Assembly (NCBI GenBank): GCA_009741485.1 | Contig: CM019238.1 | Coordinates: 15,651,947 to 15,715,946 of the forward strand | Direction of reading: 5' to 3' | From: Malurus cyaneus samueli | Taxonomy: Eukaryota > Chordata > Aves > Passeriformes > Maluridae | Length of the DNA stretch: 64,000 nucleotides | Part shown: positions 1 to 42,327 of the stretch, in pieces | Numbering within the stretch: position 1 is the first letter of the stretch | Layout: every line of letters begins with the position of its first letter | The notes under the pieces: model-generated | Database searches by the model: none | What the model was told of the DNA's origin: nothing | What the model saw: the letters and a program-made list of their open reading frames with translations, nothing else | Position numbers and translations under genes: made by a program

Positions 1-3000
1 GGATTTTTATTTTTAAAAGAACCATGAGCAAGCAAGATGAAGCAAACTTTGAAAAATTCTCTGTGCAGTGAGCTAGTTAGCTCACCAAAAACTTTGAAAA
101 GTGTAGGGGTTTTGAAACACCTCACCCTGAAAGCCCATTTTTGGCAGCATCTCTGCTTTCTTCCCTTCTGCAGATTGCAGTAATCACACAAGGGAGGGTG
201 ATCTGTGCATTCCTCAGTGCCACCCACACCTCAGTGCACACGCCAGAACTCTTCCACAAGAGCTGAGCAAGCAAGAAATGCACCATCACACTCTCAGCTG
301 GCCAATATTTTGTCAGGAGAGAACGAGGAGCTCTCTGTAGATTTATGGGGCTGCTGCTGCTGGGTACAGCCCCAGGGGCTGCTCCACAACCTGCAGGCTC
401 TGTAGGATGTGGGGTGCTTAGAGCAAACCTTGTGCTTTTTATTTTCCTTCCATTTTTACTTGGCTGCCTGAGTGCTTTCTCTCTGAAACAAGGAAAAGCA
501 TCCACAGGAACTGTCTGCAAATCCTTGCAGCTTAATTGCTTTCATCTGGGGACTTGTTATTGTTAAATTTAATAGACATTGGGGTGTTCTCTACTGAGAC
601 CTTTAATGTGTTCGGGGCTTTAGAGATCTCTGAAGAAAAATTGAACTTATGGAGAGAAAGTCAATGGTCCACTGACTGAGGAAAATCATGCACCTGCTAA
701 AGAACATCTTTCTTTCAATATTACACCACGGTATTTGGGTCCTGAAGGACCAGGCTTGACAGGGCTAATTTAAACCTTCTAGTCTTGCTGTGATTATAAG
801 ACAATGTCCAGCATGAATATACCTCTTATTCCTTGGAAAGTGACATAAAGAAATACTTTCTGGTTCAGAGTTATGTGTTTCTACTGAACAGACACAGAGT
901 TCCTTGTTAAAAGTGTGGAGGTTTTATAAAAAGGAAATAATTCTTGCAGGCAGGCACACAGCTGAGATTGCAGTTTACCTTTATGGTATCAATGATTTTT
1001 CTATGCATGTCAGGATTTGTTGTCAGATTTCATCCTTTATAACCCAGAGTTCAACATGCATTTTGATTTTCTAGTATCTTAACCTGTCCCAAATCAACCA
1101 ATAAACATTAAAAAAAAAAAATTAAGGAGAAACCCTGGTGTTCAGAGATTAACAGATTGATTTCCAACCTAATGAAAGGAGGTCAAAAAGTTCAGTTCTG
1201 CACTGAGTTTGGAAAGTTTATCCATAGCAAAGGTTTTGGGTTTTATACGGTACTTCTATTGGGTAATAAATATTCTGCCAGGCAGGAATTAATAAATGGA
1301 TCATGCTGTGCTATATATTAAAAAAAATGAGCAAAGGATTAATTTTTGTTCTTCTGGCCAATAGCTGATTTCTCACATATTTGAAAAGAATTAGAATTTA
1401 AAAGGTTAAACCAAACAGCAACCACCAGTACAAGGAGAAAACTGGGGTATGGAATGAAGAGATGGTTTTCAGATGAGAGCAAGAAGCAGATGGAAAGCTG
1501 ATGAGGCAAAGAAATGGCAACCTGGGACTTTATCAAACCATCCAGGTGGCAAAGCAAAGTGGGCTTAATTCAGCAAGATACTGAGAAATCCTTGAGATTG
1601 AGTTCCCTGATAGTCCCTACAGAGGAAATATTACAGCAGGCAATGAATCTGTACCCTGCTTTTTGACAATGGCTTGATATAAGAAATATCACACAAGAAC
1701 TTTTCGAGAAGATTAATTTCTTTAGAGTGCATTGGTGATGGTTTTTGGAAACTGCACAGGAAGAAGGTTTGGGTTTGACACTTCGGAGAGTTATATTTTA
1801 ACAGCCCTGATGTGTAAATATCTGAGTATCTCCTTACAGAAGTGAAAATAATTTATAAGATTAAAGTTTTAATAAAGCTCCTAGAACGTCTTAGGTGATA
1901 AAATAAAGGTGTTGGACACCCTTTTACCTGAAAAAAAAGGCATTAAAGTGAAATATTTTGGATACCAAAGACTGGGATCTCTAGACAAAACAACATTTTA
2001 TCAGAATGGTGCTGTCTCAGAAGTCTCTGAACTCCCATATACAATAATTGTCAATATTCAACAATTTTCCATGACTTATCCCAAATTCCCTCCCCTGCTT
2101 TGGCCTTCACACACCTTCACAAGTGACAGACTGTAACCTGTCTGCACGTACAGACCACGGGAAGGGTGGTTTGCACTTTTTTAACTTTTCTCCTCAGAGC
2201 TGCTGGCAAGGTCACACAAGTTTAGAGACTCTGAAGTGTGCCATAAAACTGCCTAAAACAGCAGAGAGCATCAATCTCTGCGTGCAGGATGAGCTGATCC
2301 CTGCAGCAGGGACACAGGAGTGACAGGCCTCATTGGGAAGACTGCAAAGAAATGGGAATGCTGAGGAAAAGCCACTCATTTGGGATGTCAATGAGAATGA
2401 AAATATTTTAGATACGATTAAAAGTAGTATTAGGAACTAAAAAAAAAGTGCTTTGGAAAAATGACTTGTCATATGGAAAAACCATGTCACTTATGGACAA
2501 AACCATGCAAAAACACAAACCACACTCATTTCTACCTATTTTCTAGTGAAAACTTCAAATTCTACTGAAGCCAATGAGTGGTGAAGGTACCAAGAGACAC
2601 TTTAAAAAACTGAGAAGGTGGAAGGTAAAATGCAGGAAGACTGGAGTCCATTCTATCAGCTCTTTGATCCCTGGCGACAGCCTTCCCACTGAGACATCAT
2701 TATTTCTGTTTAGATTTATTTCTAAAGTAACAGGAAGCTGAACTTTTCTTTTGTTTGTTTTGTTTGTGGCAGGGTGAATTCTTCTTTTCTAATTTTCCCT
2801 TTCTTCTTAACACACACTGAACAAGGACAGTGGCTCAGGGATATACATCTCTTGGGGAATACGTATTCATTAGCAGCTTAACTGCAATGCTAGCACAGTA
2901 GAAACAGCTGCATTTCAACTCTCCCTCAAGAATTGTGTTGTCTTTTGCCCTAGCAGGCTGAGAAAATACAGAGAAAAACAAGCGAGAAGTGTTAGAGAAA

Positions 3001-6000
3001 GGTTGTAGCAAAATTGCATGCAAATGGAAAAGATTTCTATCAAAAGCGACCACTGTGAAATACATATTTAAAATCTGACTCAGTCCTTAAACAGAATAAA
3101 CATCAATTTGCCAGTTGTCATGTGGTTTAGAACCATTTGCGCCATTTATTCTGAAGCAGCATCACATTTATTTTCCTGACCTGCTGTGAGAAGGGGTTTG
3201 AGATGTTACTGCCACAGCTGAAATATGTTGCTGTATTCACTGAAGACATTCAGCACTGTGCTGCACATAATAAGCTTCACCACTCATCTGACAATTAGTC
3301 ATGTTGACACATTTTTATAAATTAGACCGAGCGATCATTTTCAGATGAGACATTTTCCCTGCAGAAGGAATCCTTCAGCTTCGCAGGGCGTGCTGAAAGT
3401 CAGGCACTCGCCACAACGGAGAGCAGTGTCTGTTATGGAAAACAGAAAGGTGCCTTTTGAACATGCCAAAAGGAAAATGAAATCTGAACTAAATTTATGG
3501 TGGCAACAAAAAACCCATTTTCTTCGAGTGAAGAGACGTTTCACAGAGCCTAACGCTTCTTCTGGGCTAATTGTTCAAGTTCTATACATCAGAGTATGAC
3601 CAGAGGTAAAACAGAGCAAAACAAATTCCACTAATGAGTACAGTCCAGATTCTCAGAGGGCACAAACCAGCTTTAGTTACACCAAATGCCAGAGCCACAG
3701 CAGCTATTTCAGAGATGCAGCTGGTGCTGCAGAGCCTCAGAAAGAACCAGAAAGTGACAGAATAATATTTCTCCTTCCGCACGTCTGTTTTGACTGATGG
3801 ATTTCTGATGAATTTCCATTAAATATGAAACACTGAGCTAGGTACATATTTTTAACTGCCTGGTAGTTAATTTTACAGTTTGGAGCTGAAGACCCGGAGC
3901 TCTCTAGTGAAGGATGTAACTACAGCTAAGTAATCTGTCTGGTTAATTATTCCTCTCTTAAACACTGATAAATACAACTTTGAGAAAGCACTGCAGGCAT
4001 CTTTTTAAGCAAATACTTTCCATATTTATGTATTTATATCCCCAATCTGACAGAAACTACAAATTACTACAGAACACCATGTTATATATAACACTGCATT
4101 TTCTGCGCGGAGAGAACACAATTCCTACAGTCTGAAAAATGTTTAAAAACCACACATCCACACATCTGGGGGCTTTGTATTTGTGAAGGTCAAGGCACAG
4201 ATGTTTCACTCGTGCAGGCTGCTCCACAAAGCAGGCACACCTGTCAGCAATGCACGGTGCTGTGTTCCTGTTCCAGAGAGGATCCCAGCAGGTCCCTTTT
4301 GCCAAGGGCTGCCTGCCTTCAAGTCTCCCCAGCGCACAGAAACGCTCCAAAAAACGCTCTAGCGAGTGGTGATGGTGATGGATTCACTCTCTCCAGCCCA
4401 CTCCATCCTGCCCTGACCTTGTGGTTTGCCGGGAGAGCTCTGCAGAAATCACTGCAAAAATCTCCTGAGCAGCACCCAGACTCTCTGTGTGCATTATTCC
4501 AGACAGAGGGAAGCAGTGACAGCAGGAAACTCCACCTCCCTTCAGGTTCCACCTCATTTGCATCCAGATTTGTTTAATGACATTAAAGACAGCCGAGCGC
4601 TCAGGTTTGACTGCGGCGTCACCTGGTTTTAAATTTCCTTGTAAAACTTGCAAATACTTGTTATTAACTTCCAATCTTTTGTTCTAACTATTACATCCCA
4701 TCCCAGAATAATGAATTCTGCTCCCCAGGCAGCCCTCCTAGCCAGTTTTATAAGTCTATCAACATGCCCAAGTATATTTAAACAGCCTGGAGTGTGACAA
4801 ACTATGCAAAATGATCAAAGAACTTCAAAGTGTCATAGCACCTCACAAGGCAGATCTGTGCAAAGGTATCAATTCTTACTTTGCAAATATTTGCAAGTAA
4901 AAAAAGAGATTTCCATGAATTTGTCAAAAGGCAAAAAATGTCACTTCTCCCAGTAAATACAATTTTTCATTATGACAGCAGTAAAAATATAGAGTGGCGT
5001 ATGTGTACTCTGAGCTCTGCATACCTTGTAAAAATGAATGAGATCATTACAGCAAAATCATTTGAAAAGAATTATGGAAATAACATGATTTTAGTGAGGC
5101 TTTTTTCTTTTCCTTTTTTTCTTTTTACTTTTATCACACACTTTTTGATATACTTGGATATCAACTGATATACGTTGATCACTACTGATACAAATTAGGA
5201 AAGACTTCTCTATAATGTTTCTTACATTTGTGATGTGGAACCTTTTAAGAACATGGTTTCTGTGTTGGGGAAGTTATACTATTTCCAATATACTATGGTA
5301 ATTATCTTATTCTTTATTGTTGTAGGTTTTGAACTTTTTTTCTTTTTTTTAATTTGAGCTTATTTTTGCATCTTTAGTTCACTAAGTGTGATACATTAAA
5401 GGAAAAATTTTTAAAGCTTCATAAGACACACTTTTCAAATAAAAGCATTTAACTTTGAGCTATGACTTTCATCAAAAATCCAGTGCAGAAAACCTAAAAC
5501 AGTTAGTCAGAAATACTCTCCTAACATTTTGTTATGTACTCATACTTCCCTAAGTATCAGAGCCTCTATAACACAAAAAACGAACACTCAATTAAGTTCT
5601 CAGCCATCTGAAAAAATCGTTTTCTGCAGTATTTGATGTTCAAAGATTTGCTTATGTTTGTTACCAATAATTCTTTGAAAATGACTCTGTCTCCATGTGT
5701 TTGTGTGAACCTCTACATGTTCATTTCCTGGCTCCTGGAATTAAATATTTTCAGACTATTTTTCCATGCAGACTGTTTTTTCTGAGAGACCAGAAGCAGA
5801 ATGACTGGGGGCTTATTCACTGAGGGAATCTTACCTGCATGAAAGAGCAGCAGTTTTCCCCTTCTATTTTCCATTTAGAACAAAGCCCAGCATGCATAAT
5901 AAAGATGTCGAGTTTCTGACAGATTGGAAAGAACACAGAGAGCAGTCCTGTGAGCCCCAGAGGTAAGCAGAACGATTTCATAGGAGATTTCAATTTGGAT

Positions 6001-9000
6001 GTGCATTGTGAGTCATTTCAACACTGAGAAAGATTTAATGTCAACATCAGTTGATTCAGTACTGACATCATCTCAGAATTTCACCTGTTCTCCCTTGGGA
6101 AGAGCAACTCTGCCTCTAAGTTTACTCCAGACTGATTTTTATTACATGAAAACAGCCATTGAATAATCGTCAATATAATTAGAAAACCCCCCACGCTAAT
6201 CCACATGGTGGATGGATTTCAGGCTAATTCACTGAAGAGAAGAAAGCAGACATTAGCTAAAAATTCCTCTGGCTACACATCTCTGCCAGGAATTCTCCCA
6301 CTAATAAAGAAATCAGTTCTAAAGATCTTTTTTTGCTGCTATCTTTCTTGCCTTTGCTTGCTCTCCTGTCACTCCTATAGCTTCAGTGTTCATCATTCTT
6401 ACCACTCCTCCGTTATATCAATCTCCAGCTTCTGATTTTCCACCCCATTTTCCTCCAGTTTTGAACAAAATCACCTCCTCCAAATTACCTTGCATTCAAG
6501 AAGCTGCTCAGTTCCAGGAGAAGTGATGATGTGCTGTGAGTATGAAAGTGCTACTTATTCCTTCAGGTCCTGGGGCCATTGCCAGAATTATAGTGGCTTT
6601 CAAGTTGAGTTTACAAAATCAGGCTGGTTCCAAGGCAGTGTTTACTGCTCCATAATTTCATCTAATCCCCACAGCTACTGACATAAACTAATTGCATGTA
6701 CACATATGATCCCATTACAAATGGTGCAATCCAGATGGTGCCAATCTGGGACTGCAAACAGTGTTCCAGTGCTGTCAAATGCATGCCAGGCTTCCCTGCT
6801 GCATTTACATCTCTATTCCTCCTTTGTCATAGACATTTCCTGCTCAGCTGCTTGGGCAGCACAGGAAAGCCACGGAGTCATAAGACCCCGTGGAGAATAT
6901 TGTCCAAAAGATGTCTCCAGAGATTCTGAGAACACACCAATGGTTGAAAAATTTCAGGTTTTTTTTCTTTAAATCATTCTACCCTTACTACTATCATCAC
7001 TAACACCACCACTATTTATTATTAATTCAGCAACCCTTCCAAATTGCTGTGATTAGCAATAATTGAATCTGAACTCTCAGCTACAGAAAGACAATTCATA
7101 CCTGAAAGAACACATGGTAGGTTCTTATTTAAGTCTAAATAGAAGATACATATTGACCACACAGATAAAACTTACTTTTCCGAGCAAATTTGAAGTCAAC
7201 TGAAAGGCCACAAGCCTGGCTCATGTGAATTCAATTCAGAATCCAGCTGAATATTCCCCAGCTCCATTTTTCTGTTGTTGTTATTTATTGAGCTCTGGAA
7301 AACTGTAAACACAAAAAGAACAGCTGATATGAATAGCCTGGAGATCTAAAGAGTGCAATCAGTCAGGGGTGTAAATCAGCTTGGTGGCTCTGCTGGAGTC
7401 AGTGGTCGCACACCAAGGGATGGAGGCACTGAGTGATTCTCAAATCCATCCTCATCCTTTCCATGTTAATATATAAGCGCAGATGATTTTATGATTGTTG
7501 TTATTGCTCTTCATATTATTAAACAAACAGTTCAAAATTACTGTATTCAGTCTGAATTGCTTCTCACAAAATCACTAACAGAAATCCTTTCTGAACATGC
7601 AAGAGGCACTTCAGTATTTCATGAAGTGTTAAATTGGCAAAACAACAACACGAGTTCATTACTGCAGATTCTTTCCAGATGGAACCATAAATGTTCTGTA
7701 CTTTACTGAGCACCCGTGCTACAGAGAGGCAGAGTTGAGCATTCCGACCTCTTTTGCAGGAATATTTCTCATTGTGATCATTTCCTTTTGCAAGAAAGGC
7801 ACTAATTGAAAACAGAGCAGGGAAAGGAAGATTCCAGAACAGAATCAGAATAAGATTTCAGAAATAAATCAGAACAGCTCTGATTTATTCGCATCTGGTG
7901 TTCAGATCCCGAGTTGAAGCTGCTCTCCACATCTCCACCTCCAAACACAACACAGAGTTATTACAGTTGTGTTCAAGAGAAACTACTAAATGCTCCTACT
8001 TTTCTTTCCCTATACAGCAGTTCTATTTTTTTTGAAATCTGTCTATATCTTTATTTACATATTTTTAGAATTTAAAATTGTGTTTATTTGCTTATTTCAA
8101 AACAAGAGTTTAGCTGAGTCTTATCCCAACATAAATCAAGAATAATTCCAATGGTGTAGACCAAACAGGAACAACACATACATATAAAGATTTAAAATTT
8201 AATCAGTTGTATAATATTTAAAATATAATCCGTTCCATCTGTCCACTGTTCTTTGCCTAGAGGAAAAGTCTCACCAAAATTTTCAAAATTATTTAAAGAT
8301 GATATTGGTATATTTTTGTCTTCACTTTGAATGGGCTTTTCCCCAAAGCAGAATCATTTCATTAATCCATACCATTTCATTCTTTACATTTCCACTTTTG
8401 TACTGGAAATTCCAATCAATATGTTCATCCACTCCACTTGAAATGTTCTTGAAAAAAATAAATTAGATCTGCTTGTTCTGGAGAAGCTCTGGAGCACTAT
8501 CTTGTACTACTACAGTGTAGCTGCTACAGCTTTCCTCTCCCACTGTCTCTACTCACATCATTTTGAAATGTCTGTAACGGTGCTATAAAACTTGGCTGTG
8601 TTGATTGACACTTCAGTAAATCTGAATCCATCCCAAAGAAATGATGAAAACTTTATTGCCCTTGACAGAGCTGATAGACAGGGAGCAAAGTCCTGTTTTT
8701 GTGACATCTTCAGGGTAAATTCTGAAACCACACTGAGGATCCTACCTGATCCAACTCTCTGGCATTAAATAGGGCAAGAGCAGAAACAAAGTCCACAGTG
8801 GTAATAAACTCCCATAAATAACCACAGGGTAACACCTCCTGCACCAAAATTCTTCCCAAACTCAGAATCAATTAACCTGTCATCAGGTTAGCAGAAAAGG
8901 TTGATTTATATGGATATATAAATTTCCATAAGTGTAAGAGATTACAGTTAAACTTTCCAAAAGCAGAAACTTTCAGAGTCCTCAGACTCCTCTGAAAGCA

Positions 9001-11934
9001 CCTGTAGGAGCAGAGATCTATCTCGATATCTAAAAAGCACAGACACTGATCTGAATGAACATCCCTTGTATAAACACACTATCATGTTAGGAAGGAAATT
9101 AAATATATTCCTTTGAAGGCTCACTCTTCAGAAAATTCATATATTTAAGACCATTTCTTCAGCGTATGAGGACAAAAAAAAAGAAAAAAAAACCTATATT
9201 TTTGTTCAATTTTAGTTGTAGGGATGTTTGTACTTATCTCTGTGTTCATTAAGCATCACCCAGAAAAAGCAATATACCTACTTATTAAGGTAGAATGGCC
9301 CAGCAGCCCGAACATGGGCTTTAAAACTGCTGCCTCCAGTAGATCAACTGCTTTATTTATGGATTTTTGTGTCAGGTTTTACACCTGCCTCGCTGGAGAA
9401 GTCCCTTAACCCATTTGCCTACATCTCTGTAACAGCAATAATGTCAAACCACCTCTTTCTTCTGGAGTCTGAGGAAGAGGAATGAGTTACTGTTTTGAAA
9501 AGGCTCCAAGGAGAAAACCATTCCACAGTCATTAAACTGTGCTTTCAGAGATAATCAACCTCCAGAGGGAGTGATGGCAAAATTACCTGGTTTTTTTCCT
9601 GCCCTGTATCCTTGTGTTAAGTCAGGTTTCTGGCTTTTTTATACCATCTAAAATTTACCTTTTTTTAGCAGAGCCTGACACAACTGGGTGGATTATTCAA
9701 CAAACACCGAATAACCACCAGCAGAGGGGGGAAATTCCTACCCAATGCTATATTTTGGCAAGAGGTAGGAAAAGATGGCCCATTCCTCAGACCTGTACAC
9801 CAGTGAAACTGAGGAAATCTCAGAGATTCACCATGCATGGTGGCAGGTCTGAGAAGAACGTTCCAGAAATCAGGAATGTTTCTGTTCAGGAAGAGCTGGA
9901 AAGCCCCTCTGATGTTTCGTGGAGCCGGAGGGAAAGAAAACATCAATATATTCCTAATTTCTCTTACAGCTCACAGGAGAGGCACAAGAGGGAAGTGTGC
10001 AGTGATTTCTCTGGTGTTTCTTCCTTTCTTTCCGCTGGTGGAACACCAGCCTGCCCAAGGGTGAAGGCACTACCCTGAAAATGACAACCTATCAAATGAG
10101 CAATGCACCTAAAAATGGGCTTTAAAGGTGGAAGTTTATATAATCAAATGCCATTATATTGCCTTAAGTTATCAGCATGCAAAGTGATGATTTTCAATAA
10201 TTTCAGCAAACTGCTTTCAATAACTCTTTTGAATAAACAGTCACATTTCATGCAGTTCCTTCAGGTTTGTAAAATGTTATCTTTATACCAGACCACAAAG
10301 ACATCTGGTCCTTAAAATCAACTACAACCAGGATTTGGCCTGCTTGGAACCCATTCCCCAAACCCACAAACGTGGCTGGAATTGTCCTCACACACCTGGC
10401 AGACACCCCGAGTGCATTCAGAGCCTTTGAGAGATATCTTGATATGGTTATAGAGATTCAGGTTACTGAATGACCTCATTTTGTGAACCAGTAAACACGA
10501 ATTTATCTCAGGTCTCCTAGTAGACATATCTTACCATTGTGTAGCTCTTGAAATGTTTGAAATTCCTTTATGCTGTTTCAGATTGCTCTCAATAAGTTGA
10601 CAAGCCTGAATGCTTTCTGAGCCACTGCGAAGAGACTGACAACCAACACAATCTGAAGGCAGATAAAAGGGGATTTTTTGATGGGCCTGAAACTTATGAG
10701 CAAGGCAGAGAATAAATCTGTTTCTTGTAAGTTACTTTCTTAAAGGAAAAAATATCTGGAGTGTATTTCATCGAGGGCCTGTCAAAATAATGGCTCGGTG
10801 ATGTGAATTCAGAACATGAAAGTGCTCTATTAGCAATCAACAAGAGACAAGAGATACACCAATCTTTTCTAGCAGACTTTTCTTATCAGACACATTTGTT
10901 TTACTTCATGAGATTGTTCTAAATGCATAAAATTTACATACATATGGCTGTATTGTTAATTCCTACTATGAAACTCTTTTGGAGAGTTCTCGTTTTCTGC
11001 TTAGGAAAGGAACTTTGATGGCTGAGAAATGTTAAGTGAAGGATGTTTGGTGTTTCTCTGATCACATCAGTACAGTTATACAAAATATGGCTTTGTTCTA
11101 CCCCCATAATAATGAGAAATTATAGGAATTGCAGACATTACAGGTTGTAAGTACAAATTAGGAATAGTAAATAACAGATACTGGCAGAATGAGTAAACTA
11201 TTACAGAAGTCACCTAATTAATTTAATTCCATCTCAGTTATCTGATGATGGGCTTCCTTCATGAAACACAAAGCTTTTTTCTCTTTTCTTACATACTAGC
11301 ATACAAATAGTGCTAGAAAAAAACACTGCTCTGCAACTGGTTTAAAATGAGGTTTCTATTGCTTAAGGGAACACAAAAAACTTTGAAATACCAACTCAGG
11401 TGTGAGTTTTCTAAGAAAATATATCTTGTCATAGATTCGAGATATCTGTCTGTAAGGAACAAAATTACAGCTAATAGTTATATTTATCTAAAGATTCTGT
11501 GAAAGAGGTCACAGAATAAAAGCATTTTCACTCAACAAGAGCTGTGAGAAAATGTTCTTCATTCCTTATACAGGTGAAATTGCATTCCTCTAAATTAAAT
11601 ACAGGATATGAGGAATCCTAAATTTCTCAAAATCATGAGCTTCCCTTTCTTTCCACAGTGAAGTTAATCAGAGCTTGTTTTGACAGTGAGCACAATAAGT
11701 GAGAACTTATTTCCACATTCAGAGCAATTATTTTCATGCACTGAAGCAGATTTTGGCTTCTTAGAAAATGCCAAAGTGATGCCTCCATGCTATGATCGAA
11801 AGCAGTGATTATCATCAGATAAATCTGAGTTTCAGACCTGTTCAAATATTGAAATTCTATCTGGAAGTCCACTAAGAAAATGAAGCAGACATCATCCAAG
11901 TCTCCTGTATATGAAAAAAAAACAGTGAGTAGAT
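1..11934. other. AT-rich intergenic or intronic DNA without recognisable genes
   Basis: This stretch is AT-rich and contains only short open frames, mostly under 100 codons. The longest is a 154-codon frame at 9614-10078 plus. None shows a recognisable domain, codon bias or convincing flanking splice signals. Small homopolymer and low-complexity runs occur, for example the A-rich tract at about 9174-9191. A 14-base perfect palindrome (CACCATGCATGGTG) lies at 9829-9842 with no evident role. It could be intronic DNA of a large gene, but nothing in the sequence shows that. Confidence 0.7.
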
Positions 11935-21265: not shown

Positions 21266-21393
21266 GGCTAGGCTGGACGGGGCTTGGAACAAGCTGGTCT
21301 GGTGGAAGGTGTCCCTGCCCATGGCAGGGGTTTGGAACTGGATGGACTTTGAGGTCCCTTCTAACCCAAACCATTCTGTGATTCTGTGATTCT
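21266..21393 (+). mobile_element. CR1: CR1 LINE 3' end, 5'-truncated
   Basis: This is a well-preserved CR1 tail. It has GGCTGGACGGGGCTTGGAAC, then the AAGCTGGTCTGGTGGAAGGT block, TCCCTGCCCATGGCAGGGG, and a final pair of ATTCTGTG octamer-type terminal repeats. It is severely 5'-truncated, as is usual for avian CR1 copies, and keeps no coding sequence. It inserted close to the assembly gap. The quality of the match points to a moderately young avian subfamily. Confidence 0.95.
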
Positions 21394-32061: not shown

Positions 32062-32375
32062 GTAGCCCCCCGCCCTTGCCAATATGGCTGCCGCGCATGC
32101 GCCGGTAGCCTCCTGCTCATGCGCAATATGGCGGCCGCGCATGCGCGGCAGCCCCTTGCCCTTGCCAATAAGGCGGCCGCGCATGCGCAATAGCCCCTTG
32201 CCATTGCCAATATGGCGGCCGCGCATGCGCGATAGCCCCTTGCCATTGCCAATATGGCGGCCACGCATGCGCAATAGCCCCTTGCCATTGCCAAAATGGC
32301 GGCCCCGCATGCGCGAAAGCCCCTCGCCATTGCCAAAACGGCGGCCACGCATGCGCAATAGCCCCTTGCCATTGC

Positions 32376-32398
32376 CAAAATGGCGGCCGCGCATGCGC
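32376..32398. promoter_or_regulatory. Representative YY1 plus NRF1 motif pair in one array unit
   Basis: In this canonical unit CAAAATGGCGGC (32376-32387, YY1-type) is separated by one base from the perfect palindrome GCGCATGCGC (32389-32398, NRF1-type). A NotI site spans 32383-32390. Both factors are established promoter-binding proteins of CpG-rich promoters, and CpG methylation blocks NRF1 binding and impairs YY1 binding. The pair recurs with the same spacing in most units of both blocks. Binding in vivo is inference. Confidence 0.7.
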
Positions 32399-32787
32399 GG
32401 TAGCCCCTTGCCATTGCCAAAATGGCGGCCGCGAATGCGCGGCAGCCCCTTGCCATTGCCAATATGGCGGCCGCGCATGCGCGGTAGCCCTCCGCCCTTG
32501 CCAATATGGCGGCCGCGCATGCGCAATAGCCCCTTGCCATTGCCAATATGGCGGCCGCGCATGCGCAAAAGCCCCTTGCCCTTGCCAATATGGCGGCCGC
32601 GCATGCGCGGAAGCCTCCTGCTCATGCCAATATTGCGGCCCCGCATGCGCGGTAGCCCCTTGCCATTGCCAAAATTGCGGCCGCGCATGCGCAGTAGCCC
32701 CTCGCCATTGCCAATATGGCGGCCGCGCATGCACAATAGCCCCTCGCCATTGCCAAAATGGCGGCCGCGCATGCGCGGTAGCCTTGC

Positions 32788-32845
32788 CTTATAGCGTGCA
32801 TGCGCATACTTACATTGCGAATAAATGCGCCAGCTATCGCTAGCT
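32788..32845. other. Disrupted, non-canonical array unit
   Basis: The regular array is broken by about 58 bases that include GTGCATGCGCATACTTACAT and a CAGCTATCGCTAGCTG stretch that is nearly palindromic. The array resumes in normal phase with CCATTGCCAAAATGG. It may be a degenerate unit or a small insertion. Confidence 0.7.
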
Positions 32846-33029
32846 GCCATTGCCAAAATGGCGGCCGCGCATGCGCGGCAGCCCCTTGCCCTTGCCAATA
32901 TGGCAGCCACGCATGCGCGGTAGTCCTCCGCCCTTGCCAATATGGCGGCCGCGCATGCGCGGTAGCCTCCCGCGCATGCCAATATGGCGGCCGCGCATGC
33001 GCAATAGCCCTCTTGCCCCATTGCCTAAA

Positions 33030-34198
33030 ATGGCGGACGATTTATCGTTTGGGATATTAAGGTGCCTGCATAAGTTCATTGTATAAAGGAGTTAAAAGCC
33101 TAAAAAATGTTAATAATAAAGCCCCCAGATCTAATAACTTTAGGATTGAGAATTAATTGGAATTAGCTCTTTGCAGTCCTTTGTTGGGTGTATAAGTTTT
33201 TAAGAGGATAAGAGTGTCAGCCTACGTGCATGCTTTGGTCAATTCTACATTTGGTTCAGAGGACCAACGACGCGGAAAAGTCGATGCGACTTGGGAGTAG
33301 TCACTCCTGTGCCATGGTCTGTAGGGCAAAAAAGGACCAATCTGAGCAAACGGACTGATGGAGAATTTTTCCATCCGAGCTTTGTGTCAAGGCAAAGTGA
33401 ACGAAGTGATTGTTCATATTTTATAGGATTTCAGCTTCTAATGTTAATTTGAGGAATGGTTTGCTGCTGAGGCTTTACTCACTGATGAGGTGTTTATTTA
33501 GCTAAAACAGCAGCAATAGAGCGCCCTCATATGTTGGGTGTGCTGAACTCCTCCTCTTCTACTATGGTCGCAGGAATATAATTAGTAAATCAGCCCGCGT
33601 ACATGATGTTCGAGATCATATCTCGCTCTAGCATATAGTTCACTCTCAGTTTACATTGTCATACTAATTCTATATTATGCCTGATGTCAGCCCCTAATAG
33701 CACAAACTGCTGTGTTTTGGAAACAGCTTCCGCAAGCAAGAGATCAGACCTGTTTGTTTCAAGATTGAATTATTTTTATGCCATATCTTGCTAAAGCTGT
33801 TATTCATCTTATCCATCTTCTCATTTGGTCTCTGAGGCAAACACCCTCGATAGTTCTATTTTTGGCAATCTCCCAGCTGCACAACGAGGGCTTCTGCTGC
33901 TGTAAAAATCCAGGAACTGTACACTCAGAGGAAGTCCATCTCTGGTTCCTTTTTCCATCCTTTTGGATGTGAGGGTCGCGCCACACATCTTCAGGACTCC
34001 AGATTGCCCCTGACTTTAAGTGGCCTGGGCCAGTCGGTTTCTGCAGATAATTCGTCTTTATATTTGTGTTGCCTTTTGTTATTCAAAAAGCTGTGAAAAG
34101 AACTCACTCATGCTAACCGGCGCAGGCCACTGTGTATATGCCGCAGCGAAAATATTTCTCCCTGTCAGATGAGATGTTTTATCTGAGAGGTGCAATTA
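33030..34198 (-). repeat. Copy A of a ~1.1-kb inverted duplication, flanked by minisatellite on both sides
   Basis: This non-tandem segment lies between the two array blocks. Read on the minus strand it aligns along nearly its whole length with the plus strand of 41308-42327. Shared landmarks include CCATGGTCTGTAGGGCAAAA, GCTTCTGCTGCTGTAAAAAT, GAGGCAAACACCCTCG, AGATCAGACCTGTTTGTTTC and GAGAAATATTTC. Identity is high in blocks (by eye roughly 80-90%), with many small indels and a poorly matching middle part near 33540-33650. Copy A is about 150 bases longer. No coding potential is seen. It could be a low-copy duplication or two copies of an unrecognised dispersed repeat. The right end merges into the array right after CAATTA, and the left end shares ATGGCG with the last array unit. 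Confidence 0.88.
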
Positions 34199-34207
34199 CC
34201 AGAAGTG

Positions 34208-37200
34208 GTAGCCCCTTGCCATTGCCAAAATGGCTGGCCGCGCCATGCGCGGTGCCTCCGCGCATGCCAAAATGGCGGCCGCGATGCGCGTAGCCCTGCA
34301 GCCAAAATGGGCGCGCATGCGGGTAGCCCCTTGCCATTGCAAATGGCGGCCGCGCATGCGCAGGTAGCCTTCCCGCGCATGCCAAAATGGCGGCCGCGCA
34401 TGCGCGGCTAGCCCCTTGCCTTGCCAATATGGCGGCGGCCCGCGCATGCGCAATAGGCCCCTTGCCATTGCCAATATGGCGGCGCGCATGCGCGGTAGCC
34501 TCCTGCTCATGCCAAAATTGCGGCCCGCATGCGCGGGAGCCCTTGCCATTGCCAAATTGCGCGGCGCATGCGCAGTAGCCCCCGCCATTGCCAATATGGC
34601 GGCCGCGCATGCACAATAGCCCCTCGCCATTGCCAAAATGGCGGCCGCGCATGCGCGGTAGCCCCTTGCCCTTGTCAATAAGGCGGCCGCGCATGCGCAA
34701 TAACCCCTTGACATTGTGAAAATGGCGGCCGAGCATGCGCAATAGCCCTTTGCCATGCCAAAATGGCGGTCGCGGCATGCGCGGCAGCCCGCCCTTGCCC
34801 AATATGGCAGCCACGCATGCGCGGTAGTCCTCCGCCCTTGCCAATATGGCGGCCGCGCATGCGCGGAAGCCTCCCGCTCATGCCAATATGGCGGCCCCGC
34901 ATGCGCGGTAGCCTCTTGCCACTGCCAAAATTGCGGCCGCGCATGCGCGGTAGCCTCCCGCGCATGCCAAAATGGCGGCCGCGCATGCGCAATAGCTCCT
35001 TGCCATTGCCAAAATGGCGGCCGCGCATGCGCGTAGCCCCTGCCATTGCCAAATGGCGGCCGCGCATGCGCCTGGCCCCTTGCCATTGCAAAATGGGCGG
35101 CCGCGCATGCGCGGTAGCCTCCGCGAGCAAAATGGCGGCCGCGCATGCGCGGTAGCCCCTTGCCATTGCCAAAATGGCGGCCGCGCATGCGCAATAGCCC
35201 CTTGCCATTGCCAAAATTGCGGCCGCGCATCGCGGCAGTAGCCCCTCGCATTGCCAATGGCGGCCGCGCATGCCAATAGCCCTCGCCATTGCACAAATGG
35301 CGGCCGCGCATGCGCGGTAGCCCCTTGCCCTCGTCAATAAGGCGGCCGCACATGCGCAATAACCCCTTGACATTGCGAAAATGGCGGCCGAGCATGCGCA
35401 ATAGCCCTTTGCCATTTGCCAAATGGCGGCCGCGCGGCGCCGGCAGCCCCGGCCTTGCCAATATGGCAGCGCGCGCAGGTAGCTCCGCCCTTGCCAATAT
35501 GGCGGCCGCGGCATGCGCGGTAGCCTCTCCGCGCATGCCAATATGGCGGGCGCGCATGCGTGGTAGCCCTGCACTGCCAAAATGGCGGCCGCGCATGTGC
35601 AAAAGCCCCTTGCCTTGCCAATATGGCGGCCGCGCATGCGCGGAAGCCTCCCGCTCATGCCAATATGGCGGGGCCCGCATGGCGGTAGCTCTTTGCCACT
35701 GCCAAATTGCGGCGCGCGATGCGCGGTAGCTGCCGCGCATGCCAAAATGGCGGCCGCATGCGCAATAGCTCCTTGCCATTGCCAAAATGGCGCCCGCGGC
35801 ATGCCAATAGCCCCTTGCCATTGCCAATATGGCGGCCCGCGCATGCGCAAAAAGCCCCTTGCCTTGCCAATTGGCGGCCGCGCATGCGCGGAGCTCCCGC
35901 TCATGCCATATGGCGGCCCGCATGCGCGTAGCCTCTTGCCACTGCCAAATTGCGGCCGCGCATGGCCGGTAGCCCCGCCATGCCAAAATGCGGCCGCGAT
36001 GCGCATAGCTCCTTGCCATTGCCAAAATGGCGGCCGCGCATGCGCAGTAGCCCCTTGCCATTGCCAAAATGGCGGCCGCGCATGCGCGGTAGCCCCTTGC
36101 CATTGCCAAAATGGCGGCCGCGCATGCGCGGTAGCCTCCCGCGCATGCCAAAATGGCGGCCGCGCATGCGCGGTAGCCCCTTGCCATTGCCAAAATGGCG
36201 GCCGCGCATGCGCAATAGCCCCTTCCCATTGCCAATATGGCGGCCGCGCATGCGCAATAGCCCCTTACCAATGCCAATATGGCGGCCGCGCATGCGCGGT
36301 AGCCCCTTGCCATTGCCAAAATGGCGGCCGCGCATGCGCAATAGCCCCTTCCCATTGCCAATATGGCGGCCGCGCATGCGCAATAGCCCCTTACCAATGC
36401 CAATATGGCGGCGCGCGATGCGCGTAGCCCTTGCCATTGCCAAAATGGCGGCGCCGCGCATGCGCGGTAGCCCCTTGCCTTTGCCAATATGGCGGCCGCG
36501 CGCGCATAGCCCTGCCATTGCCAAATGGCGGCCGCGCATGGCGGTGCTTGCCATGCCAATATGGCGGCCGCGCATGCGCATAAGCCCCTTGCCATTGCCA
36601 AATGGCGGCCGCGCATGCGCGGTAGCCCCTTGCCATTGCCAATATGGCGGCCGCGCATGCGCGGTAGCCCCTTGCCATTGCCAATATGGCGGCCGCGCAT
36701 GCGCGGTAGCCCTCGCCTTGCCAAATGGCGGCTGCGCATGCGCAAAGCCCCTTGCCTTGCCAATATGGCGGCCCCGCGCATGCGCGGAAGCCTCCCGCTT
36801 GCCAATATGGCGGCCGCGCATGCGCGGTAGCCTTGCCTTCCATTGCGCGCATGCGCAGTAGCCCCTCGCCATTGCCAATATGGCGGCCGCGCATGCGCAA
36901 TAGCCCCTTGCCATTGCCAAAATGGCGGCCGCGCATGCGCGGTAGCCCCTTGCCATTGCCAATATGGGCCGCGCATGCGCAATAGCCCCTTGCCATTGCC
37001 AAAATGGCGGCCGCGCATGCGCGGTAGCCCCTTGCCATTGCCAAAATGGCGGCCGCGCATGCGCGGTAGCCCCTTGCCCTTGCAATATAGCGGCCGCGCA
37101 TGCGCGTAGCCCTTGCCATGCCAATGGCGCCGCGCATGCGCGGTAGCCCTCGCCCTTGCCAAAATGGCGGCTGCGCACTGCGCAAAAGCCCCTTGCCTTG

Positions 37201-38144
37201 CCAATTGATGCGGCCGCGCATGCGCGGAAGCCCTCCGCTCATGCAAATATGGCGGCCCGCATGCGCGGTGCCCCTTGCCATTGCAAAATTGCGGCCGCCG
37301 CGCATGCGCAATAGCCCCTTGCCTTTGCCAAATGGCGGCCGCGCATGCGCAATAGCCCCTTTGCCATTGCCAAATGGCGGGCCGCGCATTCGCGGTAGCC
37401 CCTTGCCATTGCCAAATGGCGGCCGCGCTGCGCCGAGCCCTTGCCATTGCCAAAATGGGGCCCCACGCGGATGCGCGGTACTCCGCGCATGCCAAAATGG
37501 CGGCCGCGCATGCGCGGGTAGCCCCTTGCCATTCCCAAATGGGCCGCGGATGCGCGTGCCCCGCGCATGCCAAAATGGCGGCGGCATGCGGGGTAGCCCC
37601 GCGCATGCCAAAATGGCGGCCGCGCATGCGCGGTAGCCCTCGCATTGCCAAATGGCGCCGCAGGCCGCGATGCGCGGTAGCCCCTCTGCCATTGCCAATA
37701 TGGCGGCCGCGCATGTGCAATCGCTCCTTGCCATTGCCAAATGGCGGCGCGCATGCGCAATAGCCCCTTGCCATTGCCAAAATGGCGGGCGCGCGTGCGC
37801 AATAGCCCCTGCCATTGCCAAATGGCGGCCGCGCATGCGCGGTAGCCTCCGCGCATGCCAAATGGCGGCGCGCATGCCGCGGTAGCCCTCGACATTGCCA
37901 AAATGGCGCCGCGCATGCGCGGTAGCCCCTGCCATTGCCAATATGCGGCGCGCATGTGCAATAGCCTCCTTGCCATTGCCAATATGGCGGCCGCGCATGC
38001 GCAATAGCCCCTTGCCATTGCCAAAATGGCGGCCGCGATGCGCGTAGCCTTCCCGCGCTGCCAAATGGCGGCCGCGCATGCTGCAATATCCCCTTGCCAT
38101 TGCCAAAATGGCGGCCGCGCATGCGCAATAGCCCCTTGCCATTG
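34208..38144. repeat. 42-bp CpG-rich minisatellite, block 2
   Basis: Roughly 90-95 further units of the same family lie in the same orientation as block 1. Some stretches (about 36040-36410, 36600-36700 and 36850-37080) are clean 42-bp units. Others (about 34210-34600, 35420-36000, 36410-36560 and 37080-38090) are full of one- to three-base deletions and insertions that alter the YY1 or NRF1 cores. Rare unit variants recur at intervals, showing higher-order structure: CAATAAGG at about 34676 and 35335, CTTGACATTG followed by CCGAGCATGC at about 34708 and 35367, and CACTGCCAAA-type units at about 34920, 35698 and 35939. All three minus-strand frames of the unit are open, so indels do not interrupt reading and a 1310-codon open frame results. 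No gene is inferred. Confidence 0.97.
36178..36415. repeat. 126-bp higher-order duplication inside block 2
   Basis: Three consecutive 42-bp units, including the rare variants CTTCCCATTGCC and CTTACCAATGCC, are repeated in tandem with a shift of exactly 126 bases (CCCATT at 36225 and 36351; TTACCA at 36265 and 36391). The variants occur nowhere else that I noticed, so this is a recent unequal-exchange or slippage event, or an assembly duplication. Confidence 0.85.
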
Positions 38145-41100
38145 ACAACTGAGCTGCCGAAGGAGCAGAGTCTCCAGGGGCTGCAGGTGCCCTGAGGGGC
38201 AGGAAGGAGAGAGCTCAGTGCTCCTCCAGCTCAGGAGAGAGGGTCACACCCCGGCAGCTCAGTGCCACCAACCCCTGACAGCTCCTGGAGGAGTCCTCAG
38301 CAGTTAATCACACTCTGTGCTGCCTCACCTCAGTGCTGAACCCGGGTCAAGCATCCCTTCCTAAGGCTGCAGCCTTGACAGGCAGGAGACTGAACCCAAA
38401 ATCCCTGTGGTTATCAGCAAAGCCACTGGAGCCTGCTCCTCCTCCTTTCTGCTCGATCTGAGCTCCTCAGTTGCGGATTTCAATTGTGCTTTATTCAGCT
38501 TTGGAAGGTTTAGAAATCCCAGTCGTGCTGGCTAGGTTCCTTAACAAACATTCTCCATGACATGGAAATCTCTGGATTAAAACCACCACAATGGCACCAA
38601 GTAGCATGTGCAGAATAGTATTTTTAAGAATTATTTTTATACGTACATTCTCACAAAAGCTCCAGAAATCCTGTTTGTGGCTTCCAAAGAGAAGCCAGTA
38701 AGGTCACCATGAGCAGATAAAATTAGCCAGCATCACTATAATTAGCCCAGAGACAGCCCTCTCAGAGGGATAAAACAATCTCTCTTCCAGCTCCTGCTCC
38801 TGATTTTCCCTTAAGCCCTTTCTGATGACAGGCAAACCTATTAAGCTTTCCATTGGCTGCATTTCCCCATTTAATAAAGACAAAAAAAAATACCCAAAAC
38901 CAGACAGAACCACAGCAGCATTCTCAGAACACAACCCTCAGTGGAGCACTTTGGAATCTTAGGATCGAGAGCACCAATAACTGATCCTGACTGCAAAACA
39001 CAAACTCACTACAAATAATAAGTTTGACATGGAATATCACCAGTGCTTCCTTAATTTCTAATGATATTTTCTCATAGTGAAGTTAATAAAACTTTATGCA
39101 ACCTATTTCCGTGGGATCTTTTCAAGGTTCCAGTTTGACATTGCCTTTCAGATCAAAAAGGAACGATTCAATCAAGTTCAAACACGTTTCAGAAATAGGA
39201 TGTCAGCGATGGAGGGTGGAAGGCTGACTGTAATGAGCTGAAGGATAATCACAGCTGACTCCCATTCACTTGTTCACACTGGAAACATTTATCATGAAAC
39301 TTTCTCTTAAATGAAACTTTGCAATCCAACAGCAATATCTGTCAGCTAAAGGGAGGAATGACAGAATTGTTCGATATAAGTCTTGTTCATTAGAACTTGG
39401 GTATTTTTTTTTCTCTCTTTTTAAAGAAAGGATGTCTTATGATTAAAATATCATTATAAATGAGATGGTAGCCTGTCATGTGGAAAATTGAGATTCTCTG
39501 GTTCTGGTGAGCTGCCTCCCAGCCTGAGGGCGTTTAGCTTACTTAAGTGACAGGCCTTCCTGTCTCACGAGTTTACACATTTAATTTTGCAATAACTGTT
39601 TTCATGTAGACTTTGGATTGTTTAATGTGCTCCAAGACACAAAATGTGTTTGTTGTCTTCTTGCTTTGATTACCATGCAGTCACATGTAACTGTGATCTA
39701 ATACAGAGTTCTACATACAGTCAATTTTTTTGAATGAAGACATTAAATCCACAGACATTAACCCCACTGCAAAAAGAGTTTATTTTTCTTGAATGACTAA
39801 AATGTAAATGCACAAGCATAACATTTTTATTTTTGGAGCCTGTCTTGCTCTTGAATGCAAAGTTTCAGTAGCCACACTGAACAGTTTCATTAGTGCACCA
39901 TTTTTTTTCAGTTCCTTCCTGATTTTAACATAGATTAGATTGACAGTAACCACATTTTCCCTTCAGGGCAAAAATATATGTTTTCCTATTAGATTGTGAA
40001 GGGATAACATCAATGGCTGACCTCAATTTTGGCAGACTATTCTACTAACTGCACTCCTATTATATTTGCCAATCAGTTAAAGCACTTCTGTCAGACCCAA
40101 GTACTTTACCTCTATCAGCCATGATCAAACAGGGTCAGGTCCTCTCATATAGAGGATTTTTTTTCTTTCTTTTCTCCCAGGAAGATATCAAAAGCCCATG
40201 TTTTAGTGAGTGATGGTCACGGGACAAATTCACACCCCAGAATGCAACCCAAAGGAATATCTCGGTGCAAAAAGGGAGAGAGAGAGCAGCAGCAACAGTC
40301 ACTTCTGGGATATTCACGCAGCAGAACAGATAAAAAGACATTTCTGAGTGTTTGTACCTTTTTCTGATTTGCCACACCATAATTGTCTAATGGCACAGTG
40401 AGTCATGGAGCCCCAGCTCCGAGTGAGCAGGCAGCTGCACATCACCCCGAAGCCAAAGAGAATGTTACCCATAAATGTCAGGGTAAATCAGCCCCCTGAT
40501 GTCTTTTCCTTACCCAGACTTTACTGAGATTGTTAATTAAGTGCACGTATGAGGCCACCTAACTTAGTTTCAGGGAAATATCGTTGTGTGAAGATGGGAT
40601 TTCTCCATTTGGAGAGCAGAGCAAACTGGGAAATAAAAGATGAGAGCGGGAATTGGACCCCTTATGGTTTCAAATAGAGCAAATATTAAATTCTTTCTTA
40701 ATGCAAGTTACTGGAAAGCTTCATTTCAGCCACATACTGAAAATATTCAGCACCTGGCTATTTTGTGCTAAAATATTTTGCTAGATAAAGTCAAATCTGC
40801 CTGTATTTAGCAAAATATTTAAGGCATTAAATAGACAGGAATTAAAGGCAATGAGTAAACACAGAATTCATCTGAAGAAATAGAAATAGTCATCACCACC
40901 CAAAAGACCAAAGAATTCACATTTCCCAGAGATGCTTGCAAACAATCCGTAATTTAAAATGGGGAAGAAAAAAGTGTGGAATCTTGTTTGTGTATTACTT
41001 AAGAGGATAAATTAATGGGATAAATTATTCATTCTGAAATAGTCACTGTGCTTTACTAATTCTGACAGCAAACACAATGCAGGAATTTCGTACATCGCAG

Positions 41101-41302
41101 TGTCACACCGAGATGTGAGGACATGCTTGGAGATGCTCTGCAGGCCGGAGTCAATGCTAAGAGAGATAATTAAAGATGCTTTAATAGGTTTTCAAAGTTG
41201 CTAAGATACCGTCAGGTAGTTCAGCACACCTTGGACAGCCACGATGTCCAACACTGCTCTAAATATTCATTTCCTGTAGCTTTGCTTTCCTTTTGCCTTT
41301 CC
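38145..41302. other. Right flank of the array and intergenic DNA
   Basis: The first 300 bases (about 38145-38450) are GC-richer, with CAGCTC, CTCCTCC and AGGGGC words, mirroring the GC-rich left flank. After that the sequence returns to ordinary AT-rich DNA without recognisable genes or mobile elements. Confidence 0.55.
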
Positions 41303-41307
41303 NNNNN
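41303..41307. other. Assembly gap of 5 N
   Basis: Five N bases sit exactly at the end of copy B of the inverted duplication. In copy A the equivalent position is where the minisatellite begins. The size is likely nominal. Confidence 0.98.
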
Positions 41308-42327
41308 TAATTGCAAACCTCTTCAGATAAAACATCTCCATCTGACAGGGAGAAATATTTCTGCTCGGGATTCACAGTGTTCGCTTAGCAATGAGTGAGT
41401 TTTCACAGCTTTTTCTGAATAACAAAAGGCAACACAAATATAAAGACGAAATTATCTGCAGAAACACGACTTGGAGCAAAGCAGGCAGCTGAGCTGGTGT
41501 GTGCTCACCACCTCCCAAAAGGATGGAAAGAACCAGGAGATGGAGCCTTCTCTGAGTGTCATTCCTGGATTTTTACAGCAGCAGAAGCCCTCAGTTGTGC
41601 AGCTGTGAGATTGAAAAAGAACACCGAGGGTGTTTGCCTCAGACACAAATGAGAAGATGGAATAATGTGAAATAAAACAGCTTTACAGATATGGCATAAA
41701 AATAATAATCGGAAACAAACAGGTCTGATCTCTTTGCTTGCTTGAAGCTTTTACAACACAGCAGTTTGTGCAAGTCTGCATCAGATAATATAATTATATG
41801 ACAATGTATATAATAACAGTGAATATTTAATCAATTAGGTGTTACTTTAATCCTCACAATAATAATAATATTCAGACACCCAAACAATAAGGCTTTGCTG
41901 TTTTTAACTAATAACACCTCATCAGTGAGTAAAGACCTCACAGCAAACATTCCTCAAATTAAAATTAGAAGCTGAAATACCTATAAATATTGAACAATCA
42001 CTTCAGTTCACTTTGCCTTGACACAAAGCTGGATGGAAAAATTCTCATCAGCCTTGCCTTAGATGTCCCTTTTTTGCCCTACAGACCATGGCACAGATAC
42101 ATTCCAATCCCACACTTTTCCGTCGTTGGTTCTCTGAAAAAGAGAATGACAAATGCCTACTGAACTTTTCTCTTAAAACTTAACACCCAAGATCAAAGAC
42201 TAATTCAATTAATTCTAATCTCTAAAGTTATTAGATCTGGGGGCTTTATTATTAACATTTTTTAGGCTTTTAATCCTTTATACAATGACTTATGCAGGCA
42301 CCTAATATCCCAAACGATAATCGCCAT
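41308..42327 (+). repeat. Copy B of the ~1.1-kb inverted duplication
   Basis: The plus strand here matches the minus strand of 33030-34198. It starts at TAATTGCAAACCTCTTCAGA next to the gap and runs through GGAGAAATATTTCTGC, the TTTTACAGCAGCAGAAGCCC block and GAGGGTGTTTGCCTC, to TCCCAAACGATAATCGCCAT. It carries no minisatellite on its 42327 side; the other side is hidden by the gap. A local ATAATAATAAT run (about 41859-41871) is absent from copy A. No open frame of note and no terminal inverted or long terminal repeats were recognised, so the mechanism of duplication is unknown. Confidence 0.88.

Follow-up and report, generated by a model that had tools for sequence, protein, structure and literature searches.

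A dispersed CpG-rich minisatellite with paired YY1- and NRF1-type sites in the genome of Malurus cyaneus samueli

Known repeats with YY1 or NRF1 sites and the 42-bp unit

Clustered sites for YY1 or NRF1 have been described in several short repeats and control regions. The human TERRA promoter (61-29-37) is reported to contain 29-bp repeats with two putative NRF1 sites each, both two bases off the NRF1 consensus, and its activity rises on demethylation (PMC6600276). The imprinting control region of Peg3 is described as having seven tandem YY1 sites that act on transcription (PMC5515438), and tandem promoter monomers that need YY1 are reported for the mouse L1 Tf retroelement (PMC11602158). Among avian repeats, PO41 is described as a 41-bp repeat of 63% GC that is subtelomeric and transcribed (PMC3091757, PMC4301066), and CNM as a 41-bp repeat of centromeric location (PMC9974502). 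In human promoters, YY1 and NRF1 are listed among nine leading motifs, and different motifs are reported to co-occur seldom (PMC3820735), so that a fixed YY1-NRF1 pair is unusual. Such a pair recurs in a 42-bp CpG-rich unit of the bird Malurus cyaneus samueli, within the 64,000-nucleotide stretch of DNA analysed here (contig CM019238.1, C67:15651947-15715946; hereafter the window). The locus is read here, with the chances appearing about even, as belonging to a dispersed family of CpG-rich minisatellite arrays that is related to satellite DNA and has a promoter-type YY1-NRF1 module kept through its own effect.

Both Tandem Repeats Finder (TRF) and wraparound alignment recover the 42-bp unit that had been proposed in a first-pass annotation of the sequence. 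It occupies 32062-33036 (block 1) and 34207-38148 (block 2), with TRF copy numbers of 17.1, 4.5 and 96.5; alignment to a single consensus gives 24 and 98 units in the two blocks, partial units counted, for a total of about 121. The consensus is GTAGCCCCTTGCCATTGCCAAAATGGCGGCCGCGCATGCGCG, in which column 22 is either A or T. The ratio of observed to expected CpG is 1.06 and 1.10 in blocks 1 and 2, and the flanks have 0.18 and 0.19. The window has 74 NotI sites, every one of them inside 32062-38148, and this confinement to the array offers an easy methylation assay in one digest.

Within the consensus, the YY1-type word AA(A/T)ATGGCGGC is followed one base later by the NRF1-type word GCGCATGCGC, which is a full palindrome. 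The form CAAAATGGCGGC is the reverse complement of GCCGCCATTTTG, the long site that YY1 is described as binding with high affinity at Peg3 and Xist (PMC11602158) and is reported to bind better than GCCAT (PMC4901126). The motifs are strong, which supports that part of the first-pass annotation. The word AAWATGGCGG has 16 and 53 copies in blocks 1 and 2, on the + strand only, and the palindrome 14 and 54; neither occurs in the rest of the 64 kb. Tandem long YY1 sites are present, with 5 and 25 copies of CAAAATGGCGGC and 10 and 21 of CAATATGGCGGC in the respective blocks. Measured from ATGGCGG, the next NRF1 word comes at a distance of 9 in 47 cases, and the second commonest distance is seen in 6. 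The 22-base pattern AAWATGGCGGC-N-GCGCATGCGC finds 72 matches in the window at two or fewer mismatches and none in 100 shuffles, and the pairing is far above chance. The earlier statement that most units pair both sites holds with one or two mismatches allowed (72 of about 121), but not under stricter matching: the exact 23-base CAAWATGGCGGC-N-GCGCATGCGC has 40 copies (11 and 29 in blocks 1 and 2), and a consensus-level pair (AAnATGGC plus YGCGCAYGCGC) is found in 53 of the 116 units having ten or fewer gapped columns. Many of the units that fail the pair match are full of indels. A spacer variant with CTCCCGCGCATGCC gives some units an extra NRF1-like half site (e.g. units at 32962, 34364 and 36131).

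Like the TERRA 29-bp tract, the array is made of short CpG-rich tandem units with NRF1 sites, but its consensus unit has a single full NRF1 palindrome with a YY1 site as partner, and four of the seven places at which such arrays are found are interior, unlike subtelomeric TERRA. Its clustered YY1 sites recall the Peg3 control region and the cluster in the YY1 first intron, and its A-type unit holds the 12-base Peg3/Xist site as the reverse complement; in contrast to the seven sites of Peg3, there are dozens here, and the NRF1 partner is an addition. The plan of tandem promoter-type units with a YY1 site is also that of mouse L1 Tf, whereas the present arrays are without a common element body or flank. 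PO41 and CNM are likewise short-unit tandem repeats, as compared by description and not by unit sequence, but the 42-bp arrays are small and four of the seven are interstitial.

Seven arrays, a satellite relative and core variation

A search of the genome (1.067 Gb, a size that suits a bird, in 1295 contigs of up to 164 Mb) with a 719-base piece of block 1 found 42-bp arrays at seven places: the window, C71, C101, C104, C114 (two) and C644. A 26-mer allowed three or fewer mismatches gave 221 forward and 26 reverse matches genome-wide, with none for the reversed-pattern control. The arrays lie at 19.8 of 24.5 Mb on C101, at 10.1 of 20.3 Mb on C104 and at 6.4 and 11.3 of 19.3 Mb on C114; that on C71 is 0.9 Mb from the contig end, and C644 is a contig of 35 kb. 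Four of the seven are thus separated from either contig end by 4.7 Mb or more and are not subtelomeric in position, and TTAGGG tracts are present at one of 64 fetched loci (L057, which belongs to the satellite family described below). With arrays masked, the fetched stretches (each 9 to 18 kb long) and the window in full were compared at E 1e-6. No flank proved common to any two of the seven places, except for one 73-base match at 81% identity, which lies some 3.4 kb past the C71 arrays and 20 kb ahead of the window array. The right flank of the window array is single-copy. Array ends differ in unit phase among places, without a common boundary. At the six places tested (C71 left out) there is no clear target-site duplication, and the longest words common to left and right flanks, sought as transposon ends, measure 4 to 9 bases.

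Variation within the unit was scored on an alignment of 428 units, drawn from 13 array blocks that represent all seven places, each substitution being counted against the consensus of its own block, with identical units within a block and cells beside gaps dropped and columns 20-41 taken as the core. The core is less variable than the spacer in all 13 blocks when column 22 is left out, which bears out the earlier impression of a repeat unlike a random GC-rich satellite, and at all seven places when that column is included. In the window array, variation is 4.4% in the core versus 11.3% in the spacer (column 22 included), and over the seven places the values range from 0.9 to 9.8% versus 3.9 to 16.3%. 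When the core label is slid round the unit, its true position ranks first of 42 with or without column 22, and without it the margin is clear (2.83 versus 4.10%). The two halves of the core are similarly preserved, with a mean of 2.7% in columns 20-30 (the YY1 half, column 22 left out) versus 2.8% in the NRF1 half. Column 22 is the sole hypervariable core column (29.8%, the others at most 5.6%) and coincides with the n of the YY1 consensus GCCATnTT (PMC2743690), possibly by chance; spacer columns 9 and 10 vary to a like extent (27.1 and 34.6%). Taken together, the low variation of the core suggests either constraint or biased spread.

The retention of CpG in the array is real. Core CpG transitions number 54/3075 (1.8%), no faster a decay than that of non-CpG G/C in the spacer, at 54/2834 (1.9%) with the exclusion of nine subfamily columns picked after seeing the data. 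Over all spacer columns, transitions amount to 155/4024 (3.9%) at non-CpG and 64/407 (15.7%) at CpG positions.

Short extra matches of the 719-base query also brought to light a longer CpG-rich satellite of about 240 bp. Its unit, with CTCGCCCTTCCCAAGATGGCGGCCGCGCATGCGC, resembles the 42-bp unit over about 39 bases, with the YY1-NRF1 core in register, so that two tandem-repeat families of differing unit length have the same promoter-site pair in fixed register. One 246-base unit used as query gave at least 120 matches on at least 13 contigs, besides three with 42-bp arrays only; 40 of 48 candidates were scored, and the match count is a lower bound. The weakest of the 13 contigs show about 70% identity. 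On C644 a 42-bp array adjoins a partial 240-bp unit. The satellite differs from the 42-bp unit in being longer, in having a second YY1 site, in being set in satellite DNA of 20-22-bp period and in having mainly G at the position that is A or T in the 42-bp unit, the G-type form of the pair being AAGATGGCGGC-N-GCGCATGCGC; the window array itself is without a full 240-bp unit. The DNA beside four 240-bp loci has the period of 20-22 bp and, at two of the four, also one of about 1.04 kb. In a sample of 49 units taken from 12 loci, the least variable 15-base window of 225 includes the second YY1 site.

Several observations were made around these satellite loci. On C644 (L046) there is an inverted repeat of the array flank (1697-3316 and 8389-10000, 94.6% identity), each arm of which runs up to a 42-bp array; the DNA in between is 240-bp satellite and G-rich satellite. 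At L040 (C1:1172000-1179000) a different, CAGCTGTACACTGGAGTGTGTCACTG-like tandem repeat follows the 240-bp array from about 4000. A weak (70%) match to the family at C56:72112092-72112265 is separated by about 2.5 kb from the end of a contig of 72.1 Mb, and is perhaps near a chromosome end.

Explanations for the retained core

The core has the form of a promoter-type module, in which a YY1 site of one direction is followed one base later by a palindromic NRF1 site, and the minisatellite could bind both factors if unmethylated. In the reading favoured here, the CpGs would be unmethylated at some stage, the best guess being the germ line or early embryo, and YY1 and NRF1 would then bind many neighbouring units. 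The bound array would stay open as an orphan CpG island from which non-coding transcripts start, as may be compared with the NRF1-bearing 29-bp TERRA repeats, and a methylated array would exclude both factors and fall silent. Methylation is reported to inhibit NRF1 binding (PMC6600276), and at the L1 Tf site, which is closely similar to CAAAATGGCGGC, CpG methylation is reported to have cut YY1 binding at least 8-fold (PMC11602158). The core would accordingly be preserved by an effect of its own, through shielding from methylation and deamination or through preferential spread of open units, and not by service to a neighbouring gene. A benefit of this kind to the host may exist, but no finding points that way: the ten longest open reading frames (ORFs) outside the array hold no Pfam domain and the flanks of the arrays elsewhere are unrelated.

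A number of results weigh against this reading. The units are related by descent, and their low variation is therefore no test on independent sites. Once column 22 is counted, the true core position leads the other rotations by little (4.06 versus 4.15%), and core variation on C644 reaches 9.8%. Only about a third of the units in the window hold the exact pair, as do 16 of the 49 units of the 240-bp family, in which 23 of 218 windows are less variable than the YY1-NRF1 pair. Core CpGs decay about four times as fast as their non-CpG G/C neighbours in the core (9/2063, 0.4%), which amounts to some methylation-type decay. In addition, mutation of the seven Peg3 YY1 sites in mice is reported to have changed expression and left DNA methylation unchanged (PMC5526879), a result that speaks against YY1 alone shielding a repeat.

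A passive minisatellite remains a strong rival and a serious possibility, somewhat short of an even chance: the promoter-like core would have arisen by chance, and the repeat would have spread by slippage, conversion and re-insertion with the factors playing no part. Small dispersed arrays with unshared flanks and no common boundary are what such a process might leave, relatedness and conversion can hold a core similar, some CpG decay is present and 63 of 116 units are without the consensus-level pair. It accounts less readily for a core below the spacer in every one of the 13 blocks, for a variable core column that coincides with the unspecified base of the YY1 site, and for two families of unlike unit length that hold the pair in register. 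The shape of the DNA might instead keep the core, the strictly alternating CGCGCATGCGCG being prone to Z-DNA or cruciform formation and so driving instability and spread. The consensus unit does have a 12-base alternating purine-pyrimidine run, but its folding is no better than that of shuffles (z -1.36 and -0.29) and conservation of the YY1 half would be left unexplained, which makes this account quite improbable.

The function proposed in the first-pass annotation, that of a locus-specific looping anchor, boundary, promoter cluster, methylation-controlled switch or factor sink acting through YY1 and NRF1, is unlikely. Dense strong sites in one orientation would suit such an element, and tandem YY1 sites are reported to act on transcription at Peg3 (PMC5515438, PMC5526879), but the unit recurs at six other places with unrelated flanks, the ten longest ORFs outside the window array hold no Pfam domain and the core is held in common with satellite DNA. 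As the core belongs to a wider CpG-rich satellite inside other satellite DNA, the evidence leans towards the satellite case that the annotation had set against its own proposal. More improbable still is a remnant of retroelement promoter monomers; the tandem promoter units with a YY1 site described for mouse L1 Tf (PMC11602158) provide the model, whereas at the present loci the only match between flanks is the 73-base one away from the arrays, the right flank in the window is single-copy, target-site duplications are not apparent at the six places tested and the ten ORFs gave no Pfam match.

The favoured reading, of a family whose module is kept through its own effect, may be extended to a tentative and rather doubtful proposal: that a songbird-like satellite lineage captured the compound YY1-NRF1 module and spreads by means of it. 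The module would keep arrays free of methylation and active in transcription in germ-line cells or early embryos, with intact units being copied and homogenised while the spacer drifts. If this were so, each array would maintain itself as an orphan CpG island and might be a recombination hot spot, birds not being known to have PRDM9. Provided that the sites are bound, the arrays would offer a natural series of seven for asking whether methylation-sensitive activators can guard a repeat against silencing and promote its spread.

Layout of the window array and minor features

The units had been described as lying in two blocks, but this layout looks false. A genome search with 33037-34206, the stretch between the blocks, returned two matches, namely itself and 41308-42320 of the window in inverted orientation. 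Aligned over the 1013 bases of its partner, the matched part agrees at 957 positions, with 23 substitutions, 177 inserted bases and 33 missing ones. A surplus of small insertions is typical of uncorrected single-pass long reads, and diverged DNA shows mostly substitutions. The apparent spacer is thus probably an uncorrected long-read copy left by gap filling; a real element between two arrays was rejected on the error spectrum, one other copy being found. Since the spacer reads as such an inverted copy, neither the two-block layout nor the number of units is to be trusted, be it the more than 100 units claimed earlier or the total of about 121 counted here. The count in block 2 is in any case approximate, because indels by TRF reach 10% there versus 1% in 32062-32783.

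A short ATGGCG word is common to the array and the inserted piece where they meet on the left, and likely caused the wrong join. The far end of the inserted piece continues into array sequence, so that either the 5-N gap at 41.3 kb hides an inverted array or the piece is chimeric; in the former case, a second, inverted array may flank 38149-41302. On C71, a 2.6-kb array flank occurs twice at 99.6% identity (about 2400642-2403283 and 2405317-2407961), once before each of two array blocks, and is perhaps a false duplication due to a similar fault. The false spacer serves as a warning on reading structure from gap-filled repeats. Features of the window are collected in Table 1.

Table 1. Coordinates of the array, its apparent spacer and associated features (window positions).
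Feature	Position	Strand	Remarks
Array block 1	32062..33036	+	42-bp units; 32062-32783 almost without indels
Exact YY1-NRF1 pair, example	32377..32398	+	AAAATGGCGGCCGCGCATGCGC
Irregular stretch in block 1	32784..32843	+	traces of unit only
Apparent spacer	33037..34206	.	insertion-rich, matches 41308-42320 in inverted orientation over 33042-34198; probable gap-fill artefact
Array block 2	34207..38148	+	about 97 units of the 42-bp repeat, indel-rich
5-N assembly gap	41303..41307	.	may hide an oppositely oriented array
Clean partner of false spacer	41308..42320	-	adjoins the 5-N gap

Other origins for the array were considered. Long stop-free frames within it were taken as a by-product of the 14-codon unit, and a coding array was set aside on that reading. 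Rfam at gathering thresholds gave no match and an RNA gene is not indicated. No exact match was found to a 27-base unit piece in genome_contigs or to 19- or 24-base core words in viral_contigs (exact matching only in both), and a microbial or viral origin was set aside on these exact-word searches. No YY1-NRF1 minisatellite was found among the titles and abstracts listed from open-licence PMC, which is weak evidence of absence. The surroundings are consistent with the gene-poor DNA first described, in that none of the ten longest ORFs outside the array matches Pfam. Elsewhere in the window, ATTCTGTGATTCTGTG at 21373-21388 resembles the 3' end of an avian CR1 element.

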